IMG/VR virus record: IMGVR_UViG_3300048928_000648
Coordinates: 1 to 50,684 of that record
Reading direction: 5' to 3' (one strand)
DNA length: 50,684 bases
Origin: a virus
Shown: positions 1 through 47,945 of the stretch, in pieces
How the letters are laid out: every line of letters starts with the position of its first letter
Numbering within the stretch: the first letter of the stretch is position 1
Notes under the pieces: model-generated
What the model was told of the DNA's origin: nothing
The model's input: the letters and a program-made list of their open reading frames with translations, nothing else
Database searches by the model: none
Translations under genes and position numbers: made by a program

Positions 1-1461
1 TTAATAATCAAGGGGTTCCAGCCTAACTTGGATATTTACATCTGATCCGTTAGTGATATCAACTATTTTAATAAGCTGCCTTAAAGCGTTTTTGATTTCT
101 CCGCGATTGTTAGAATTCAGATTTGGTTTTAATGAGTCAACACGCTTTAGAAAATCTTTTTCTAAGCCGGCTCTTGAACCCGTTTCTGCAATGGAAATTT
201 GTTCTTCAATCTCTTCTCGCTCTCTGTTTATTCTATCGCGAGCAATACGATAATCTTCTCGACTTATGTCATCGTCTTCAAACAACTCGATTTGTTTTTG
301 CATTTTTACATCTAATTTTTTTAATTTTTCATGTAGTTTCGAAGTATCAACTTGGTTATCAGCTTCAGTAACGGGAACTTCTCCAAAATCACCAGTTATC
401 TGTTGTCCAATTTCTTTTAGATTTCCAAGTACAGTGTTCTCGATCTCATCTCTCCTAATATAGTGGTGATAACATTCTCCTTTTTTAGAGTAAGTGTTAC
501 ACACGTAATTATAATATTCTCGACCACTGTTTTTTCTTCTATAACGTCCTATCATAAGACCGCCACAATGAGCACAACGTAAAAGGCCTGATAGTAGCCA
601 ACGTTCGTTATCGGCTTGTGCTCCTGCTCGTCTTCGTGATGTTATAGCCATCTGTAATTGCTGGAAAGTGTCTTTGTCTAATATAGCCTCGTGATGGTTA
701 TCAATAATAATCCATTCTTCTGGGGGTCTAGTAAGTATCTTTCCTCGCAGTGCATAAGTACGATTGTAAATCATTGTGCCGGTCAATGTCTCTCGATGCA
801 TAAGCCTACGTACTGATCCCTGAGAAAACTGATTTCCATCTTTCGTTTTGATACCCATATCCTTTAGTCTCATCATTACCTTATGAGCACCTTCTCCTTC
901 AATCATCCACTCAGCCATTTTTTTAACAATTTCCGCTTCATTTTTGTTTATCACTAATTTTCCATCAACTATATCGTATCCAAAACAAGGCCTTGATATT
1001 GCCTTATCCGTATTAGTAACGAGAGAAATCATGTTTTCTCTGACACGTTCACTATTGCGTCCTCGCTCAAATTCAGCAAAAGCCCCAAGTATATGCAGAG
1101 CCATTCTACCAGTAGCGTTGGAAGTATCAAAGCGCTCACTTGCAGATGCAAAGCCACACTGTAACTCGTCAAATTCATCTACGAGCATGAGTAATTCCTT
1201 TAGGTTTCGGCAAAGGCGGTCAATTTTAGTTATGACAACCATTCCGATTTCTTTTTTACGTACTTGTCTCAGCATCCTTGTGAGTGCTGGACGCTTTAAA
1301 TTGCCTGCGGAGTAACCGTCATCGTTAAACACTTCAATAGTCCCCGACCAATCCATGGCATGACAATATGCTCTTAATCGTTGTTCCTGCTCAGATAGAG
1401 AGTTTCCTTTTAAAGCTTGTTCATCGGTACTAACACGAATATATAGTGCTATTTTTTTCAA
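1..1461 (-). CDS. int: Large serine recombinase (phage integrase)
   Basis: Site-specific recombinase expected to integrate and excise the phage between attP and attB through a covalent serine-DNA intermediate. The N-terminal resolvase domain has the catalytic motif YIRVSTDEQ (Ser11) and the downstream arginine-rich segment (KIDRLCRNL). It is followed by a recombinase domain, a zinc ribbon (CAHCGG, later a C-x8-C pair, about residues 294-335) and a C-terminal coiled coil, the usual order for this class at 486 aa. The start is TTG with an AAGGG-like ribosome site somewhat far upstream; no in-frame ATG lies close. It is transcribed away from the rest of the phage, and its stop codon is the first base of the window. 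Family assignment is secure; attachment-site specificity cannot be read. Confidence 0.96.
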   Translation of the reverse strand: MKKIALYIRVSTDEQALKGNSLSEQEQRLRAYCHAMDWSGTIEVFNDDGYSAGNLKRPALTRMLRQVRKKEIGMVVITKIDRLCRNLKELLMLVDEFDELQCGFASASERFDTSNATGRMALHILGAFAEFERGRNSERVRENMISLVTNTDKAISRPCFGYDIVDGKLVINKNEAEIVKKMAEWMIEGEGAHKVMMRLKDMGIKTKDGNQFSQGSVRRLMHRETLTGTMIYNRTYALRGKILTRPPEEWIIIDNHHEAILDKDTFQQLQMAITSRRRAGAQADNERWLLSGLLRCAHCGGLMIGRYRRKNSGREYYNYVCNTYSKKGECYHHYIRRDEIENTVLGNLKEIGQQITGDFGEVPVTEADNQVDTSKLHEKLKKLDVKMQKQIELFEDDDISREDYRIARDRINREREEIEEQISIAETGSRAGLEKDFLKRVDSLKPNLNSNNRGEIKNALRQLIKIVDITNGSDVNIQVRLEPLDY

Positions 1462-4244: not shown

Positions 4245-4634
4245 ATGATGAAAGAAAATATAGACATGGCATTTACTGCTGATAAACCTGAATTAAATTA
4301 CCGCGAACAACTGGAACGTCACCTGTACACTATCAATGGTGTGTTGGAAGAAATAGAAGAGGCATCGCCAAGACCGGATAAACTTCTTATCCTTTCGGAA
4401 AAGGCCGTAAATTTGTATGGGCACCTGATGATTGCGAAGACTCATGCACTGGAGGCTCTTGTTCAGGTTGAACACGCGTCTGCTGGAGCTACAATCGTCA
4501 TTGACGGTTCTATTGATCAGACAAGGGATTTGCAAAAAGAATTTAATGAAATATTCAGAGAACACGAGGAACGGCTTGAAATGATGCGGAATGGAATGAG
4601 AAGTAGAGACGGTAAGGACGGTAGAGGCGCATGA
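4245..4634 (+). CDS. Hypothetical helical protein (129 aa)
   Basis: Starts at ATG 4245 (or the adjacent ATG 4248) behind AAGGAGATG. The protein is almost wholly alpha-helical by composition, with long Glu/Leu/Arg heptad-like runs (EQLERHLYTINGVLEEIEE and REHEERLEMMRNGMR) suggesting a coiled coil. The next gene overlaps its stop through ATGA, so they are translationally coupled. No family recognised. Confidence 0.7.
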   Translation: MMKENIDMAFTADKPELNYREQLERHLYTINGVLEEIEEASPRPDKLLILSEKAVNLYGHLMIAKTHALEALVQVEHASAGATIVIDGSIDQTRDLQKEFNEIFREHEERLEMMRNGMRSRDGKDGRGA

Positions 4635-4870
4635 CACCCTATCAATTTGAAGTGTGGAAACGAAAGTGTAGGAAGAGAGCATTGGGCAATTTTATCAGAC
4701 ATTTACAAGACTCTTTCACAAATTCATTCGTAGAGGCTGGTGTTCCTAAACCTCTTGTGGAAGTTGTCTTTAATTTTGATAGAGTGCAATTAGGCACGCT
4801 AGAATTAGAGAATCAAACGGTTGAAGTGGTGTATGACTCACCACTGCCTCTCACGCCAGAGTATTCGTAA
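4631..4870 (+). CDS. Hypothetical protein (79 aa)
   Basis: A 79-aa protein with a basic N-terminus (EVWKRKCRKRALGNFIRH). It overlaps the previous gene by four bases (ATGA) and the next by one base (TAATG), showing a tight three-gene operon. No recognised motif. Confidence 0.65.
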   Translation: MTPYQFEVWKRKCRKRALGNFIRHLQDSFTNSFVEAGVPKPLVEVVFNFDRVQLGTLELENQTVEVVYDSPLPLTPEYS

Positions 4871-5052
4871 TGTTCAAATGGTTGATGGAATCATATCCAC
4901 CTGTTGATACATTTGAATGTTCTCATTGTGGCAAGAAGACACCCGGTAAATGGTGCAACTACTGTCCAAGCAGACGAGGGACCTACTGGGATAAGAACGG
5001 TACACCTTGTAAACCGACTGCGAGGCTCAATCCGAATATAATTAAGCAGTGA
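4870..5052 (+). CDS. Small zinc-binding protein (60 aa)
   Basis: Contains CSHCGKKTPGKWCNYC, two CxxC knuckles typical of a zinc ribbon, in a 60-aa protein. It is the last gene of the coupled operon starting at 4245 and lies directly upstream of the iteron-like repeat region. A replication-linked role is possible from that position only. Confidence 0.6.
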   Translation: MFKWLMESYPPVDTFECSHCGKKTPGKWCNYCPSRRGTYWDKNGTPCKPTARLNPNIIKQ

Positions 5053-5090
5053 ATGTTTATACACAATATACATTAATGATGAATATTTGT

Positions 5091-5213
5091 GGTGGACAAT
5101 CATACCCCACTAAGTTATCGCTCTTGGGGGACAATCGTCCACCACTAAATGCACATTGAACATATCTCTTGGGGGACAATCATACCCCTCTAGTGGGGGA
5201 CAATTACCCCCCT
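5091..5213. repeat. Iteron-like repeats, copy A (four units)
   Basis: Four 19-base units with a shared pattern GGGGGACAATC-NNN-CCCCT lie at 5091-5109, 5126-5144, 5171-5189 and 5195-5213. Each is a semi-palindrome with G-rich left and C-rich right arms. A purine/AT-rich tract (5214-5275) follows. The same arrangement occurs inside the O-like replication gene at 43375-43477. Together these make the 5053-5361 gene-free stretch a candidate replication origin or initiator-binding region. Confidence 0.65.
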
Positions 5214-5275
5214 AAGAAAGAAAAAAGAAATAAAAGAATAATAATATATATAATATATAGCTCATTTAGAGTTAA
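5214..5275. other. AT-rich tract beside iterons (possible unwinding element)
   Basis: A run of A-rich then TATATA-rich sequence immediately after the last iteron. It is similar in character to the tract at 43480-43525, suggesting a DNA unwinding element. Inferred from composition and position only. Confidence 0.4.
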
Positions 5276-5361
5276 TAGATACATACATCGTTCGTATGCA
5301 TTATGCATAAAAGACGGTGTATTTGTTGTTCATACATAAACAAAGAGAAAGGATGAGGATC

Positions 5362-5739
5362 ATGACCACATATCACAACATATTCAGATGGCATATCAAG
5401 AGAGCAAGGATAACAGGAGACAGCACAGCAGTTATTGATATCTACATACCAGGAGTGAATCAACGTGATCGGGTAGATATACGATTAAACCTGATTGATA
5501 GATTACGTGGTATTGATATCGAGAAGAAGACATTACGCACATTAGATAAGTGGATACTGATTTGTCATGAGAAGAATATAGAACTGGATAGAGCAGATGC
5601 ATTGAGCAGAATTCATCATGAACCAGGAGCTTATGCGAGCATAGTTCCATATAGCAGGATTGTCACTAAGGGTACAGACAGGCCACCCTTATACCAATCA
5701 GTGAACAGTACTCTTAATAAAGGGCGTGAGAATGTATGA
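5362..5739 (+). CDS. Hypothetical protein (125 aa)
   Basis: Starts at ATG 5362 with AAAGG nine bases upstream; an in-frame ATG at 5353 sits too close to that site. The protein is basic, Arg/Ile rich, and predicted soluble. It overlaps the following gene by ATGA. No family recognised; it lies just after the iteron and AT-rich segment, in a locus of its own. Confidence 0.65.
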   Translation: MTTYHNIFRWHIKRARITGDSTAVIDIYIPGVNQRDRVDIRLNLIDRLRGIDIEKKTLRTLDKWILICHEKNIELDRADALSRIHHEPGAYASIVPYSRIVTKGTDRPPLYQSVNSTLNKGRENV

Positions 5740-5999
5740 GTAGGATAGTACGAGAAGAACAATACTCTGACGATGAAGCGGTCAAACAGTTCCTTGATCA
5801 ATTGCTGAGTCTATCAAACCTTACTCTATCGTTGAAGAACGTAGAGAACATATACAGCAATATACTTGGCAAGGGCGTACATCCTGACATTAGTAAGTTG
5901 CTCAGTATCTTGGACGATAAGGATGAGGCAGACCTTAGACGTATCTGCAATAAGCTGATCAAAGGCGGAATACAATTGGGATTTCTACAGGATAAATAA
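5736..5999 (+). CDS. Hypothetical helical protein (87 aa)
   Basis: Translationally coupled to the previous gene (ATGA overlap). It is rich in Leu, Asp and Lys with helical segments (DEAVKQFLDQLLSLSNLTLS) and has no cysteines or membrane spans. Function unknown. Confidence 0.65.
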   Translation: MSRIVREEQYSDDEAVKQFLDQLLSLSNLTLSLKNVENIYSNILGKGVHPDISKLLSILDDKDEADLRRICNKLIKGGIQLGFLQDK

Positions 6000-6231: not shown

Positions 6232-6744
6232 ATGGCTAAAGCTAAGACGGAAGCAATTAAGGTACATGATCAAATAGTTCAGACTGGTGAACTGGCTGCC
6301 ATCGTCGGCAAATCAGACCGCTGGATCAGGCAATTGACCGCTGAAAAGGTGCTGCAGCAGTGCTCCAGAGGTAAATACATCTTGGGTGAATCTGTTCAGT
6401 CTTATATTGAGCATGTTTCTGGTGGTAAGGAAGTCGATAAAGGGCCTCGGCTGATAGATTATAAGACCGAACATGAAAAAACGAAGGCAGAAAAGGCAGC
6501 GCTGGAGTTGGATCTTTTAAAGGGTAATCTCCATGCGGCTGGAGACGTGGAAAAACTTCTCGCAGACTTGATAATTACAACAAAGTCACGGCTGCTTGGG
6601 ATTCCGCACCGGGTAGCGACTGAGTGTGAGAACGAGACGGCGGATGTTATAGAGTCTGTTGTCCGGCGAGAAGTAGAATCAGCACTTGCTGGACTGGCCC
6701 GTTATTCCCCGGATCAGATCGGTGGCGGCACAGATGATAGCTGA
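6232..6744 (+). CDS. Terminase small subunit (Nu1-like)
   Basis: The DNA-recognition subunit of the packaging motor. It begins with a winged-helix-like domain (GELAAIVGKSDRWIRQLTAEK, about residues 18-38), then a charged helical region (YKTEHEKTKAEKAALELDLL) resembling the lambda gpNu1/phage packaging-protein family, and a C-terminal part that would bind the large subunit. At 170 aa it matches the family size. GGAGGG lies upstream of ATG 6232. It overlaps the start of the large subunit, as is usual. Opens the late head operon. Confidence 0.85.
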   Translation: MAKAKTEAIKVHDQIVQTGELAAIVGKSDRWIRQLTAEKVLQQCSRGKYILGESVQSYIEHVSGGKEVDKGPRLIDYKTEHEKTKAEKAALELDLLKGNLHAAGDVEKLLADLIITTKSRLLGIPHRVATECENETADVIESVVRREVESALAGLARYSPDQIGGGTDDS

Positions 6745-8593
6745 CAAAACGATAGACCTTTTCAGCAGAGCAAACAAACAGTGGGAGCCAAAACCGCACC
6801 TGAGTGTCTCTGAGTGGGCGGACCAAAACCGAGTTCTCACGACAGAGAGCAGCGCAGAGCCGGGGCCATGGCGGACAGATCGAGCAGAGTACCAGAGAGA
6901 GATTATGGATTCTATTAAAACCTGGGAAGAAGTAGCTATTATGGCCTCGGCTCAAGTCGGCAAGACAGAATTTTTGTTGAATGTTACTGGTTCGTACATT
7001 GACCAGGAGCCTTGCCCGATCATGCATGTGCTGCCCAAAGATGATTTAGTACAGGCCTATTCCAAAAAACGTCTAACTCCAATGATTAATAGCTGCGAAG
7101 CTTTAAAATCGAAGATTGGTCCAGCCAAGTCGAGAGACAGCAGCAACACAATTGAAGAAAAATCTTTCCCCGGTGGTTATGTGACGATAGTCGGGGCCAA
7201 CGCTCCAGACAGTTTATCTTCGCGGCCGATTCAAGTAGTTCTGTGTGACGAAGTGGACAGGTTCCCGGTTTCCTCCGGTAAAGAAGGCGACCCAATCGCT
7301 CTTGCTACTGCACGGACAACAACATTCCGGCACAAGCGGCGGCATTTGTTCGTATCAACTCCGGTTGATAAGGAAACTTCTCGCATTTACCAGCTTTACG
7401 AAGACAGCACTATGGAACAATGGTGCTTGCCGTGCCCGCATTGTGGGGAGTTGCAACCTTTGAGATTCAAAAATGGGGTTGAATACGAACATTACGAGTC
7501 AGAAAGTGGCGAGATTGTGGTCACAAAGGCTGAATATCGCTGCTGTTACTGCGGTATTTTAGGTTCAGAAAAGGAATGGAAGCGCGGGAATGGAGCTTGG
7601 ATTGCTCGTAAAGAGCATTCAACCCGGCGCGGATTCCACATCAATCAGCTTTCAAGTCCCTGGTCTGACTGGCGAGAGGTATCGAAAAAGTTCTTAATAG
7701 CCAAACGTGAGGGCGTAGACAAACTCAAAGTTTTCATAAATACGGTCCTTGGAGAGCCTTGGGAAACAAAGGTCAAGGGTATGGACGAGAAAACGCTAAT
7801 GCAACGCCGTGAGGTGTATGAACACGAGGTGCCGGAGGGTGTGAAAGTCATTACGGCAGCGATTGACACTCAAGATGACCGTTTTGAAGTGGAGATTATG
7901 GGCTGGGGAGCTGGCAAAGAATCTTGGAGAATTGAATACAGCCGTATATACGGAGACTTGGACAGGCCCGAAGTGTGGGAGGAACTGGACAGGTTTCTTT
8001 GTCGTTCGTGGGTCGGACCAAACGGACGAGAATTCCGTATTGTGGGCGCTTGTATGGACTCAGGCGGTCATTATACCAAAGAGGTGTACGAATTCACTAA
8101 GCCAAGGGAATATCGCCGCATATACGCCATTAAAGGGCAAGGGATCAACCCCAAAACGGCAGAGCATGTCCCATTCATCGCCAAGCATACCCGTACCCAA
8201 ATGTATAATGCGATATTAATTCATTTGGGGGTAGACGATGGCAAGGTCAAGGTCCATGACAGCTTAAAAGTAGAATCGCCGGGACCTTTATACTGTCATT
8301 TCCCGGGCGAGGATAAGGGATACACACAAGAATATTTCTTGGGTCTGACTGCTGAAACGCACAAAATTGTGGTGAAAGAGGGCGTTAAGTACAAAGCCTG
8401 GGTCAAGACTCGTGACCGAAACGAGCCGTTTGACTTAGCTGTCTATAACCGAGCAGTTGTTGAATTGTTGAATCCTAATCTTTCACTGCCCATTGAGCAG
8501 CAACCAAACGGCCCCATCATTGATCCTGATGGTGGGGGGCGAGTAATTGCACCACGTAAAAAGCGCAGACAAGGCGTTAACAGTAGTGTGTAA
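6734..8593 (+). CDS. Terminase large subunit (lambda gpA family)
   Basis: ATPase and nuclease that cuts concatemers and drives DNA into the prohead. From the ATG at 6734 it is 619 aa. The family-type Walker A variant ASAQVGKTE is at about 71-79, Walker B-like VVLCDEVD at about 168-174, and a zinc-binding part follows with CPHC and CCYC pairs in the middle. The C-terminal nuclease region includes acidic residues (AAIDTQDDRFEVE, DSGGH). The start overlaps the small-subunit stop. A longer in-frame start at 6686 is possible but would overlap more. The whole length matches GpA-type terminases. Confidence 0.95.
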   Translation: MIADKTIDLFSRANKQWEPKPHLSVSEWADQNRVLTTESSAEPGPWRTDRAEYQREIMDSIKTWEEVAIMASAQVGKTEFLLNVTGSYIDQEPCPIMHVLPKDDLVQAYSKKRLTPMINSCEALKSKIGPAKSRDSSNTIEEKSFPGGYVTIVGANAPDSLSSRPIQVVLCDEVDRFPVSSGKEGDPIALATARTTTFRHKRRHLFVSTPVDKETSRIYQLYEDSTMEQWCLPCPHCGELQPLRFKNGVEYEHYESESGEIVVTKAEYRCCYCGILGSEKEWKRGNGAWIARKEHSTRRGFHINQLSSPWSDWREVSKKFLIAKREGVDKLKVFINTVLGEPWETKVKGMDEKTLMQRREVYEHEVPEGVKVITAAIDTQDDRFEVEIMGWGAGKESWRIEYSRIYGDLDRPEVWEELDRFLCRSWVGPNGREFRIVGACMDSGGHYTKEVYEFTKPREYRRIYAIKGQGINPKTAEHVPFIAKHTRTQMYNAILIHLGVDDGKVKVHDSLKVESPGPLYCHFPGEDKGYTQEYFLGLTAETHKIVVKEGVKYKAWVKTRDRNEPFDLAVYNRAVVELLNPNLSLPIEQQPNGPIIDPDGGGRVIAPRKKRRQGVNSSV

Positions 8594-39805: not shown

Positions 39806-40735
39806 ATGGCAAATACAAACAATCAGCTCCAAGCAATTCAAGAGGAAGTCGTAGTCGGAAATTATACGCAGAAACATCTGGATACATTGAAATCTACCAT
39901 CGCTAAAGGAACCAGCAATGAGCAGTTTGCGCTTTTTGTTCAGACCTGCGTCCGTACTGGACTTGACCCTTTCCTAAATCAAATCTTCTGCATCGTGTAC
40001 AACGGCAAAGACGGTCCTGTTATGAGTATGCAGATTGCAGTGGAGGGCATTGTAGCTCTTGCCAAGAAACACCCGCAATACAAGGGCTTTATCGCTTCTG
40101 AAATCAGAGCTAACGACCACTTCACTGCAAAGATACATTCAGGTGAGGTTGAACATGAACCGGATGTAATGAACCCGGGGGAGACGGTGGGGGCTTACTG
40201 CATCGCATATCGTGACGACGCTCCTAACATCCTTGTTATCGTGCGAAGGGATCAGGTGGAACACCTCATAAAAGGCCGAAACAGTCAGATGTGGAAAGAC
40301 TATTTTGACGACATGATCGTTAAGCACGCCATTAAGAGAGCATTCAAACGCCAGTACGGAATTGAAGTTTCGGAAGATGAGCCAACGAGTGCAAATCCTT
40401 CTATCGAGAATGTGTCTCCTTATGAGCGTCGTGATATCACTGCTGAAACGGACGCAGCAGCAGCGGCAGCCAAACAAGGGAACAAACCACTACCTGACGG
40501 AAGTCCCGAACAAGCACCAACACCTGTTGAACAAGCCTTAACAGACATGAAATTTAAATTTAAACAGCTTGGCATTACTGAGAGGGACGACCAATATGCC
40601 TATATCCAAAAGCATGCGAAGCCGAAGGCTGACGCTCCCACACTGGCAGAGCTCAAAGGGCTCCTGAAAATTATGGACATGCACCTTGCGGAGAAGGCCG
40701 CCCAGGAGCAGGCGAATGACGAGCTTCCACTTTGA
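39806..40735 (+). CDS. bet: RecT/Bet single-strand annealing recombinase
   Basis: 309 aa. The Bet-family motif QTCVRTGLDPFLNQIFCI and GDPVM-like SMQIAVEGIVALAKKHPQY are clear, with MIVKHAIKRAFKRQ closing the core; the Ala/Pro-rich C-terminus is variable. It pairs complementary strands during phage recombination. ATG 39806 after AGGAGG. Lies just after the SMC-like ATPase. Confidence 0.94.
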   Translation: MANTNNQLQAIQEEVVVGNYTQKHLDTLKSTIAKGTSNEQFALFVQTCVRTGLDPFLNQIFCIVYNGKDGPVMSMQIAVEGIVALAKKHPQYKGFIASEIRANDHFTAKIHSGEVEHEPDVMNPGETVGAYCIAYRDDAPNILVIVRRDQVEHLIKGRNSQMWKDYFDDMIVKHAIKRAFKRQYGIEVSEDEPTSANPSIENVSPYERRDITAETDAAAAAAKQGNKPLPDGSPEQAPTPVEQALTDMKFKFKQLGITERDDQYAYIQKHAKPKADAPTLAELKGLLKIMDMHLAEKAAQEQANDELPL

Positions 40736-43054: not shown

Positions 43055-43873
43055 ATGGCAAACCCCCAACTCGAAAATGGGTACGCGAGGATCGCCAACG
43101 AGATATTCGATAACATCGTGAAGAGACATCATAAATTCAACGGAACTCAATATGCGATTGTCCTGGCGGTCTGGCGATACACTTACGGGTTTGGGCGAAA
43201 GGACCATGAACTAGCCGTGAGTTTCATCGCTGAATATCTCGAAGGCGACCTGCGAGGCGTTAAAAAGGAATTATCTTATCTTATAGAACGTAAGGTGCTG
43301 GTTGTAACTGAGGAAGCTTACGGGTCCAAATCTCGTAAACTCGGATTCAACAAAAACTATGACCAGTGGCTTGTGGGGGACAAAACGCCCCCTAGGAAAA
43401 AACAATCTCTCGGGGTACAATCCTCCCCCTCTGAGGGGTCTAATCATACACCAAGAGAGGGGGACGATTCACCCCCCAATAAAGAAAGAAAGAAAAATAT
43501 AAAGAAAGAAGATATATATATGAAAATTCCTCCTGGTAAAACTCAATATGCTGACACTGTATTTTTAACACCAGAGCAGTATGAAAAGCTTTGTTCTGAC
43601 TTTGGTAAAACGAAGGTTGACGACATGATTGAAGCTTTGGACGAATGGCAAGGGAACCAGAAGCCTAGTAAGCACAAGAAGGATCATAACAAGGCGATTC
43701 GTGTTTGGATTAAACGGGATCAGGCTCGAAACGCTCCCAAAGAATCTAACAGAGCTCGGGGAGATCAAGCCTTAGATAACTTGATGCGGAAGGAGTTGGG
43801 ACAAGGTGGAACGGGCAAACGTGATATTTCTAATGAAGTACATCTCCAAGGCTTACCGGAGTTTCGTGATTGA
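43055..43873 (+). CDS. Replication initiator (lambda O-like)
   Basis: 272 aa. The N-terminal domain (MANPQLENGYARIANEIFDN, AIVLAVWRYTYGFGRKDHE) is the phage replication O-type winged helix that binds origin repeats. The middle (about 105-155) is a low-complexity linker coded by four iteron-like repeats, just as lambda ori lies inside O. The C-terminus (YEKLCSDFGKTKVDDMIEALDEW) resembles DnaD-type domains. The helicase loader follows. Confidence 0.92.
   Translation: MANPQLENGYARIANEIFDNIVKRHHKFNGTQYAIVLAVWRYTYGFGRKDHELAVSFIAEYLEGDLRGVKKELSYLIERKVLVVTEEAYGSKSRKLGFNKNYDQWLVGDKTPPRKKQSLGVQSSPSEGSNHTPREGDDSPPNKERKKNIKKEDIYMKIPPGKTQYADTVFLTPEQYEKLCSDFGKTKVDDMIEALDEWQGNQKPSKHKKDHNKAIRVWIKRDQARNAPKESNRARGDQALDNLMRKELGQGGTGKRDISNEVHLQGLPEFRD
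43375..43477. repeat. Iteron-like repeats, copy B (inside the O-like gene)
   Basis: Four units at 43375-43393, 43411-43430, 43433-43453 and 43459-43477 with the pattern GGGGGACAATC-NNN-CCCCC, the third being the most divergent. An AT/A-rich tract (43480-43525) follows. They match copy A near 5.1 kb. Most likely the replication origin. Confidence 0.8.
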
Positions 43874-44177
43874 CGAAAGGGAAGTCGAATCCGAGGTTCA
43901 AGTGTGGCATGACCTTCTTCGGGAAGTTCCCTTTGAAACAGCTATTGAAAAAACAAGGATGCTTTGTCAGACAAATGAGAAATGGGCGCCAACGCCTGCG
44001 GAGATATACCAAGCATGCCAGCCTGAGCAATCCTATTATGCTCTACAGCGGGCAGAGGAACAGGCTGACACTTTGGCTCTACAAGAATATTTAGAACAAG
44101 CCGTACCTATGCCCGACCACATCCGTAAGCGGCTGGAGAAATTACAGTCCAGTAGGAGGCTGAACCATGAGTCTTGA
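43806..44177 (+). CDS. Helicase loader (G39P/DnaI-like, 123 aa)
   Basis: The N-terminal helical bundle (MKYISKAYRSFVIDEREVES, VWHDLLREVPFETAIEKTRM, EKWAPTPAEI) is typical of SPP1 G39P-like loaders. GTG 43806 is chosen because the family usually has ~10 residues before the KISKAY-like motif; ATG 43833 is the alternative. Delivers the DnaB-type helicase to the initiator complex. Confidence 0.85.
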   Translation: MERANVIFLMKYISKAYRSFVIDEREVESEVQVWHDLLREVPFETAIEKTRMLCQTNEKWAPTPAEIYQACQPEQSYYALQRAEEQADTLALQEYLEQAVPMPDHIRKRLEKLQSSRRLNHES

Positions 44178-45501
44178 CGCTGAACGCGCAGTCCTCGGGT
44201 CAATCCTGAACAAACCTGAATTGCTAGATGATTGTTACCTCACTTCCGAAGATTTTGGAGCTGATGAAAGACACGGGCTGATCCTTACAACGCTTCGCTA
44301 TGCATATGAACAGTTCACCGGAAATCCTGACCCATTTGATCCGCTGTTGATGGTTCAACACTGGGGTGGGAATATTGCGAAGATTGGCGGGGTGACTTAC
44401 CTCATGCAGCTTCGTGATGCGGTTCCTGCGGTTCATAACTACCAGTCCTATCAGGCTATTGTCCGCGAAGCTTACGTACAACGTGAGGCCGCCAGAGCCT
44501 TTGAAGAAGCATCTGCTACAGGAGCAATTGATGTAACGGCTGTACAGGAACGAATGGACGAGCTCAACCAACTCCAAAAGGGACAGGCCGAGAACAACAT
44601 GCTTCGAATGGCGGAAGTGCTGGACGGTCACCACCTAGAAATTCTGGACCGTGGTTCGAGGGCGGGGATTACGGGAACCAAAACAGCATCCGACGACTTG
44701 AATGAGATGGGAAGCGGTCACCAGCCTGGGGATGTAACCATCGTAGCGGCACGGCCCAGTATCGGAAAGACAGCCTACATTGTTAACGATTCTGTAGCTG
44801 CTGCTGAGGGCGGAACTACTTCCGCTATATTCTCGGCTGAAATGCCTTCCAAAGACGTGTCAGAACGCCACATATGCGCCCTAGGCGGCATTGACAGCAA
44901 AAAGATACGAACGGGACGACTGACGGAAAACGACTGGGACAGCTACAGCAAGGCGCTTGAGATTTTAGAGTCTCTACCAATCTACATTGACGATACGCCA
45001 GGTATGACCATTGAGTATATTTGGCGCCAAGCGAAAGACCTTAAAAAGCGGAATCCGCGCCTAATCATTTATGTTGATTATCTTCAACTAATTGAATCGG
45101 AACGAAAATTTTCTAGTACGTCTGAACGTGTATCCTATGTTTCAGCACAGTTCAAGAAGATGGCTCGGGTGCTGGGTATCCCTGTAGTGGTAATCTCTTC
45201 GGTCGGTCGGAAATGTGAGGATCGGCAGGACAAACGCCCGATGATGTCAGACCTGCGGGATTCGGGGAATATCGAGTTTGACGCTGACGTGATTATCTTC
45301 CTTTACCGGGACGATTACTATTACCCGGATACGATATTGAAAGGGGTCATGGAGCTGATTGTAGCCAAAGGCCGCAAGATCGGTACCGGAACAATACAAA
45401 TGATGTTCAACCGGAAAACGAGTCGCTTCATGAATCTCACGAAGGACGATAAATATGAGCTTGAAAAGAAGGTGAGAGAACATGGGGCAAATCGTAGATG
45501 A
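44167..45501 (+). CDS. dnaB: Replicative DNA helicase (DnaB family)
   Basis: 444 aa with N-terminal DnaB domain, Walker A ARPSIGKTA (about 195-203), the FSAEMP and RTGRLTENDW segments, VDYLQLI (Walker B) and the C-terminal DLRDSGNIEFDADVIIFL. All key motifs of DnaB are in place. Overlaps the loader by eleven bases and follows GGAGGC. Confidence 0.96.
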   Translation: MSLDAERAVLGSILNKPELLDDCYLTSEDFGADERHGLILTTLRYAYEQFTGNPDPFDPLLMVQHWGGNIAKIGGVTYLMQLRDAVPAVHNYQSYQAIVREAYVQREAARAFEEASATGAIDVTAVQERMDELNQLQKGQAENNMLRMAEVLDGHHLEILDRGSRAGITGTKTASDDLNEMGSGHQPGDVTIVAARPSIGKTAYIVNDSVAAAEGGTTSAIFSAEMPSKDVSERHICALGGIDSKKIRTGRLTENDWDSYSKALEILESLPIYIDDTPGMTIEYIWRQAKDLKKRNPRLIIYVDYLQLIESERKFSSTSERVSYVSAQFKKMARVLGIPVVVISSVGRKCEDRQDKRPMMSDLRDSGNIEFDADVIIFLYRDDYYYPDTILKGVMELIVAKGRKIGTGTIQMMFNRKTSRFMNLTKDDKYELEKKVREHGANRR

Positions 45502-46993: not shown

Positions 46994-47325
46994 GCGAACA
47001 ATTTATAGCCATCGTAATTCCAGTGCTGGACTATCCGGTTCATGGGTACCAGCCGGGAGACATGCGGGTCAAGTTACAGGAGGAAGTAAACGAGCTAATT
47101 GAGGAAGTAGAGTCCAAGGATTATGACCAACGCCGGACGCTAAGTGAGCTCTTCGATGTGCTGCAGGTGACGGTAGGGCTGATCCGACAACAGGCAAGGG
47201 AGACTCTACCGCCTGGAGAAGCTACCAAGGTCCTGCAGAACGTTATCGCTCGGGCCAACCAGGACCACCTGTACAAGATCAAAGAGTATGGGCGGCAGCG
47301 TAACTGGGAGGCGGCGCGGTTATGA
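46990..47325 (+). CDS. MazG-like nucleotide pyrophosphohydrolase (111 aa)
   Basis: The all-alpha NTP-PPase pattern KLQEEVNELIEEVESKD with ELFDVLQVTVGLIRQQA places the metal-binding EExxE and ExxD motifs. Phage MazG-like enzymes hydrolyse nucleotides or alarmones and can dampen host starvation signals (family knowledge). Overlaps both neighbours by four bases. Confidence 0.82.
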   Translation: MSEQFIAIVIPVLDYPVHGYQPGDMRVKLQEEVNELIEEVESKDYDQRRTLSELFDVLQVTVGLIRQQARETLPPGEATKVLQNVIARANQDHLYKIKEYGRQRNWEAARL

Positions 47326-47945
47326 AGCTTTTAGCAATTGATCCGGCTATGAGAATTGTTGGAATTGACCCGGCGATTAGATTTGTGGGAATTGACCCAG
47401 CGACGACTACAGGATTTGTGGCTCTTGATATTGACGGTACTGTACTTGTTGAAAAATCATTCCGTGGCAAGGGAAAGAGCATCCCAGGCGGTATATCTCC
47501 AGAGCAGCGTATGTCCCTTGAAAACCAGCTTTTCCAACTGCTCCAACCGAGAGACATGATTGTCAAGGAAGGGGTTGCACATAGGACGCCTAAGCTCATC
47601 ACAACATCTAAAATCCATGGTGGACTTGAAGGGATGATTACACGTAAAAATCTATCTTTCCACGAAGTAGCACCAGACGCGGTGAAAAAATTTGTAGCTG
47701 TCACTGGTTGGAAAGGTCAGAAAGGGAGCATGCAACGCCTGAAAGGTACCAAGGAAAAAAAGGAAGCTATGGCGGCTGCAGCATTGAAGCACTTCAATTA
47801 CAGCAATCCCAGCAATGACATAGTGGATGCATACATCATCGCTCGTATCTCCTTGAATCTCTACCGCATGCGCGAATACATGCCGCTGCTGGACAATGAA
47901 CCTTACCAAATCGAAGTCATAGAATCCATCTTAAATAAGGCATAA
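47322..47945 (+). CDS. RuvC-like Holliday junction resolvase with repeated N-terminus
   Basis: 207 aa. RuvC fold: catalytic Asp in GIDPATTTGFVAL, acidic VKEG, and DIVDAYIIARI near the C-terminus. The N-terminus is unusual: a 27-base (nine-residue) unit occurs three times (AIDPAMRIV, GIDPAIRFV, GIDPATTTG; 47334-47414), so the first strand with its catalytic Asp is triplicated. ATG 47349 could be an alternative start. Resolves branched DNA before packaging. Confidence 0.88.
   Translation: MKLLAIDPAMRIVGIDPAIRFVGIDPATTTGFVALDIDGTVLVEKSFRGKGKSIPGGISPEQRMSLENQLFQLLQPRDMIVKEGVAHRTPKLITTSKIHGGLEGMITRKNLSFHEVAPDAVKKFVAVTGWKGQKGSMQRLKGTKEKKEAMAAAALKHFNYSNPSNDIVDAYIIARISLNLYRMREYMPLLDNEPYQIEVIESILNKA

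Follow-up and report, generated by a model that had tools for sequence, protein, structure and literature searches.

Replication and packaging genes of the phage

The window, that is, the whole stretch of DNA analyzed here, is the complete 50,684-bp virus record of a temperate phage, and its features are collected in Table 1. The O-type initiator scored 67.5 bits against PF04492 (cutoff, 28.7 bits), and its nearest relatives are found in prophages and phages of Paenibacillus and the Bacillus group; we infer that the host is probably Paenibacillus. Profile comparison of the DNA-binding domain of O with the PDB gave nothing significant. The family assigned to the helicase loader is also matched by SPP1 gp39. 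A gene for an SbcC-like ATPase (37852 to 39411) adjoins the RecT gene and is kept in the replication regions of two related genomes, G001 and G009. The terminase genes mark the late, or packaging, side of the genome, and the small open reading frame (ORF) upstream of them had no Pfam match.

Table 1. Features of the 50,684-bp window
Feature	Position	Strand	Basis or description
Serine integrase	1-1461		
Iteron array 2	5091..5212	+	Four near-palindromic 18-mers, noncoding; consensus GGKGGACAATNNNNCCMC
Units of array 2	5091-5108, 5126-5143, 5171-5188, 5195-5212		
Putative DNA-unwinding element of array 2	5213..5263	+	AAGAAAGAAAAAAGAAA, then TATATA tract
Small ORF	5317..5739 (likely start 5362)	+	Downstream of array 2; 5′ half coconserved with array 2
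Terminase small subunit (terS)	6232-6744	+	phrog_57/phrog_15 search (both subunits)
Terminase large subunit (TerL)	6686-8593	+	phrog_57/phrog_15 search (both subunits)
Repressor genes	near 35 kb		
Replication genes	about 37-48 kb		
RecT-type annealing recombinase	39806..40735	+	PF03837, E 4e-33
O-type replication initiator	43055..43873	+	PF04492, residues 5-105, Pfam E 1.6e-18; PHROG O-like families
In-gene iteron array	43375..43476	+	Four units in the linker past the O DNA-binding domain
Units of in-gene array	43375-43392, 43412-43429, 43435-43452, 43459-43476		
In-gene putative DNA-unwinding element	43477..43521	+	Purine-rich AAAGAAAG tract, then TATATATA
SPP1 G39P-family helicase loader	43806..44177	+	PF11417, E 7.6e-8; phrog_2289
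DnaB-type replicative helicase	44167..45501	+	DnaB_C; PDB 3bgw (SPP1 G40P) match, E 2e-67
RuvC-like Holliday junction resolvase	47322..47945	+	phrog_159, E 7e-22

Two iteron arrays, each beside an easily melted tract

A preliminary description of this genome reported eight iteron units in two groups of four, one inside an O-like initiator gene and the other in a gene-free segment. Both groups are present, and the gene holding the first is indeed of the PF04492 O type. Array 2 is noncoding and sits between an ORF that ends at 5052 and one that starts at 5317/5362. All eight units share one orientation. The in-gene set is more degenerate than array 2 (mean pairwise unit identity, 0.68 versus 0.82), its third unit, GGGGTCTAATCATACACC, deviates from the consensus of the preliminary description, and two of the four units of array 2 are more palindromic. 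When the record was searched with the pattern GGGGGACAATCNNNCCCC, allowing ≤3 mismatches, 11 matches were obtained against 0.82 expected, and none of the shuffles reached 11; the biggest cluster comprised 4 sites in the real sequence versus 2 in 200 dinucleotide shuffles. The whole-record scan found no further iteron cluster. On the circularized map the arrays lie 12,400 bp apart, which agrees with the earlier figure of about 12 kb.

Purine tracts resembling AAGAAAGAAA, and then TATATA, follow both arrays, as had also been noticed before, and the order of iterons, A-rich stretch, and TATATA is identical at the two sites. According to nearest-neighbor energies, the 70-mer from position 5212 is the least stable duplex in the whole record, and the in-gene tract (43479) is its fifth least stable nonoverlapping 70-mer. 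Cumulative GC skew rose near steadily along the record and turned at neither array.

Array 2 is conserved apart from its neighbors

The replication region (37.2 to 48.2 kb) is 80 to 93% identical to that of G001 (the record of L008), a phage genome carried by an isolate (IMG 2907196573), which also shares an isolated 560-bp island, positions 5050 to 5610 of the present record, that holds array 2. Outside this region and the island there were only a few matches of 40 to 60 bp, and the terminase and portal proteins of the present record had no match in G001. Array 2 was also found in G009, whose O protein is 55% identical to that of the present record and which has its own variant iterons. Across these three genomes, the array and its tract (positions 5080 to 5320, about 240 bp) are 97 to 100% identical, while the flank before 5040 drops to about 50% identity and the downstream ORF to about 80 to 95%. 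A further genome, G002, encodes a TerL 84% identical to that of the present record and is without a second array. Since array 2 occurs beside an unrelated terminase in G001 and is missing next to a similar TerL in G002, it goes with the replication genes and not with the packaging genes.

A translation of array 2 in one frame is similar to the O linker (tblastn E value of 1.3e-5 in G008; LGDNHTPLVGDNYPPKKEKRNK), and array 2 may have begun as a copied O linker that was released from coding constraint. G008, which is near-identical to G001, has five units rather than four (L185, 6085 to 6230), one 24-bp unit being duplicated, so the number of units readily changes. The first half of the small ORF at 5362 to 5739 (MTTYHNIFRWHIK...) travels with the array in four records, and the second half is swapped. 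A nucleotide search of positions 4600 to 5750 against phage records returned chance matches only; a single-unit pattern scan of IMG/VR gave mostly lone, unrelated matches, and a double-unit pattern had 0 matches in the 75 genomes scanned from the genus to which G005 belongs.

A survey of phages with O-type initiators

We surveyed 44 genomes with O-type initiators, drawn from IMG/VR and a phage collection and including a few in which the initiator is merely similar or distant (Silence, GBK2, Jimmer2, and G004). In-gene iterons were identified de novo, and each genome was scanned with its own set; an independent search looked for iteron clusters next to purine-rich repeats. Iterons were located inside the initiator gene only in 27 genomes, on the terminase side only in 10 (Spoks, SDFMU_Pfc, Mimir87, G105, G106, G110, G111, G112, G114, and G121), and at both sites in 6 (the present record, G001, G009, G091, G115, and G120, with three motif types); these figures are counts and not frequencies, since close relatives are included (G105/G112/G114, G106/G111, and the present record/G001). 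In the one remaining O-type phage, G093 (L337 to L339), neither in-gene nor terminase-side iterons were found. Weak three-site in-gene calls made by the automatic finder in G106, G114, and G121 were not iteron-like, and these genomes were classed as terminase-side only. The figures are limited to counts also because some survey records are perhaps incomplete and TerL was not located in ten.

All 16 terminase-side arrays lie 1.5 to 4.7 kb upstream of TerL (measured across the record end in Spoks and Mimir87). Each of the ten relatives with terminase-side iterons only has a single array in a noncoding gap, followed by [AT]AAAGAAA repeats. The distance between the two arrays ranges from 9.0 to 20.7 kb over the six dual genomes. 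In a phylogeny of the DNA-binding domain, obtained by a short search and with many weak branches, the dual state required five changes, three of which were forced by well-supported branches.

The second array matches the in-gene motif of the same genome in all six dual genomes, and one protein should therefore read both sites. Both arrays read like CGTCCYACANNTGTAGKACG in G115 and like CGTCCWCYAANTWGTGGACG in G120, and both fall into the GGKGGA family of the present record in G091. When the 44 O linkers were ranked by the second-array matrix of a given genome, the linker of that genome came 1st for G115 and for G120, 2nd for the present record (behind G009), and 6th for G091, the higher ranks being taken by the same motif family. 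The best match outside O had a z score of 5.4 to 10.4 in the six dual genomes compared to 2.7 to 4.3 in the 27 genomes with an in-gene array only. Covariation was tested on G115 and G120; G007 was left out, as its record ends before its initiator gene. The covariation is weak for G091 and G009 because their second arrays share the motif family of the present record.

Comparison with SPP1 and lambda

In SPP1, oriL lies inside gene 38 and oriR is noncoding; about 12 to 13 kb of the circular map separates the two, each has direct repeats together with an unwinding element, and gp38 binds both (PMC6316719, PMC3485210). A model for SPP1 proposes that oriR-bound gp38 stalls forks and brings on concatemer synthesis (PMC6316719, PMC3485210). 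The present genome has the same arrangement of repeats at two distant sites, one in the initiator gene and one noncoding, with a spacing of 12.4 kb and an AT-rich putative unwinding element beside each set (ranked first and fifth, as above). Also common to both are the gene order of initiator, G39P-family loader, and DnaB-type helicase and the presence of a recombinase and a resolvase: the function of the RecT-type recombinase is of the same kind as that of SPP1 gp35 in the switch model, and that of the RuvC-like resolvase is analogous to that of G44P.

The two systems differ in their initiators, as gp38 has PF09524, is without a PF04492 match, and has no significant blastp similarity to the O protein described here. 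Our comparison drew on X67865 and on 049ML001, an SPP1-like phage. The SPP1 oriR lies beyond the terminase and portal genes; in 049ML001 the second site lies beyond the terminase and portal genes and a head gene, whereas in the temperate phage described here it precedes terS, and 049ML001 has short direct repeats in place of 18-mer near-palindromes. As a modest positive control, our own scan picked the 4.6-kb noncoding gap of 049ML001 as its best second site (4641; z score of 4.0). Judged by sequence, the array pair resembles that of SPP1 in anatomy and is not a member of that group by initiator family. The preliminary description had called a second copy unusual; the word should be toned down given the two-site layout of SPP1 (PMC6316719, PMC3485210) and the six surveyed phages with both sites. 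Beyond SPP1, we found nothing in the open-access literature on second origins in O-type phages or on origins upstream of the terminase. SPP1 has so far been the main example of one phage initiator with two origins; the same layout now appears in six genomes with lambda-O-type initiators, in which three motifs covary with the in-gene copy.

With lambda, the genome shares iterons inside a PF04492 O-family initiator gene, past the DNA-binding domain and followed by an A/T-rich tract. Lambda is known to have no origin other than the in-gene one, whereas a second array is present here and in five other genomes; a G39P-type loader gene after O is a further difference.

Candidate roles of the second array

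Array 2 is best explained as a second binding platform for the O-type initiator that the phage itself encodes and as a probable second origin. That O binds array 2 is highly probable on present sequence evidence, and we consider it likely that the array serves as an origin or in the control of forks; its use specifically in an SPP1-type switch from theta replication to concatemers is a tentative proposal. Of the readings offered in the preliminary description, that of a second origin is the best supported because the second array has its own genome's in-gene motif in six genomes, a melting tract is found at both sites, and ten relatives have the terminase-side array only. In such a scheme, O would bind to the four units of either array, the A-rich/TATATA tract beside the bound iterons would melt, and the G39P-type loader would bring the DnaB-type helicase. 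Theta replication would start mainly at the in-gene, oriL-like site; the terminase-side, oriR-like site would fire too, or O bound there would stall forks. Stalled forks would help a RecT- and resolvase-dependent change to concatemers, which the terminase would package. Two observations speak against this reading: 27 relatives have no array besides the one in the initiator gene, so that a second site is not required, and the cumulative GC skew turns at neither array.

Array 2 could instead serve titration or copy control, binding O without starting replication, lowering free O, and thereby limiting firing at the in-gene site. Iteron plasmids carry extra control iterons of the P1 incA type, which are likewise distant from the origin; such a role would fit the motif common to both arrays, the better mutual agreement of the array 2 units, and their noncoding location. 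It is nevertheless unlikely, as a titrator would need no melting tract, yet the weakest duplex of the record is conserved together with the iterons, and in G091 and G115, too, the second array has a purine-rich/AT tract beside it. To our knowledge, control loci of iteron plasmids such as P1 incA are described as being without an unwinding element, whereas array 2 has a putative one. Moreover, the array at that site is the sole one found in ten relatives and so cannot titrate another there. The preliminary description also offered a relic, and an inert remnant or stray O-linker copy left by module exchange would account for the absence of a second array from most relatives; the linker-like reading frame makes descent from the O linker plausible. 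We regard this reading as improbable, however, because array and tract are nearly identical in three genomes while their flanks have diverged, the second array lies upstream of the terminase in 6 of 6 dual genomes, and the units, despite a stop codon and the lack of a DNA-binding domain, vary less among themselves than those of the coding copy.

Two readings that do without O draw on the neighborhood of the packaging genes. Activators of the ArpU type bind repeats upstream of late promoters, and the array comes after an ArpU gene in Spoks, SDFMU_Pfc, and Mimir87, but it is very improbable that array 2 consists of sites for such a late-transcription activator or another regulator near the packaging operon. 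We rejected this reading because the motif equals that of the O gene in six genomes, the ORFs immediately before array 2 had no PHROG match, and no promoter excess was found around the array. Repeats recognized by the terminase (cosB or pac) would suit a position 1.0 kb upstream of terS, yet this explanation is extremely improbable, being contradicted by the dissociation of array and terminase in G001 and G002.

For O-type phages in general, we tentatively suggest two conserved origin addresses, the interior of the initiator gene and a place just upstream of the terminase. Origins would shift between these addresses or occupy both, tracking the changing motif of their own initiator, and the terminase-side copy might be selected because forks that start or stall there feed packaging. 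The purpose of a second origin near packaging genes is a long-standing question that can now be tested by comparison, and the survey locates predicted origins to the base in many phages that are so far uncharacterized.

Terminase-side arrays and modules in other phages

Psychrobacillus phage Spoks, Bacillus phage SDFMU_Pfc, and Virgibacillus phage Mimir87 carry single terminase-side arrays (L172, 34932 to 35090; L174, 15585 to 15790; L171, 46100 to 46310). They resemble the present genome in their O-type initiator, four near-palindromic iterons, purine-rich AT repeats, and noncoding gap upstream of the terminase but differ in motif sequence and have no in-gene iterons. We found no description of these arrays as origins in the open-access literature. 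Behind the arrays come TAAAGAAAAC repeats together with a small inverted repeat, ACTAGCAAA..TTTGCTAG, both of which are likely part of the origin in these phages.

The terminase-side slot of G007 (L190, 5315 to 6320) and of L249 (819 to 1700) holds two tandem small winged-helix (HTH_36-like) proteins, after whose genes come TAGTGACA repeats, GGTNAACNACGTTNACC iterons, TATAAAGAACTA repeats, and an AT-rich tract; together these form a predicted, self-contained origin-like module that encodes DNA-binding proteins of its own. In L209 and L238 (IMG 2579778983 and 2524614594), an initiator gene of the HTH_36 type contains G007-type GGTAAACCACNTTTACC iterons, and HTH_36-type proteins are a putative third initiator class with in-gene iterons.
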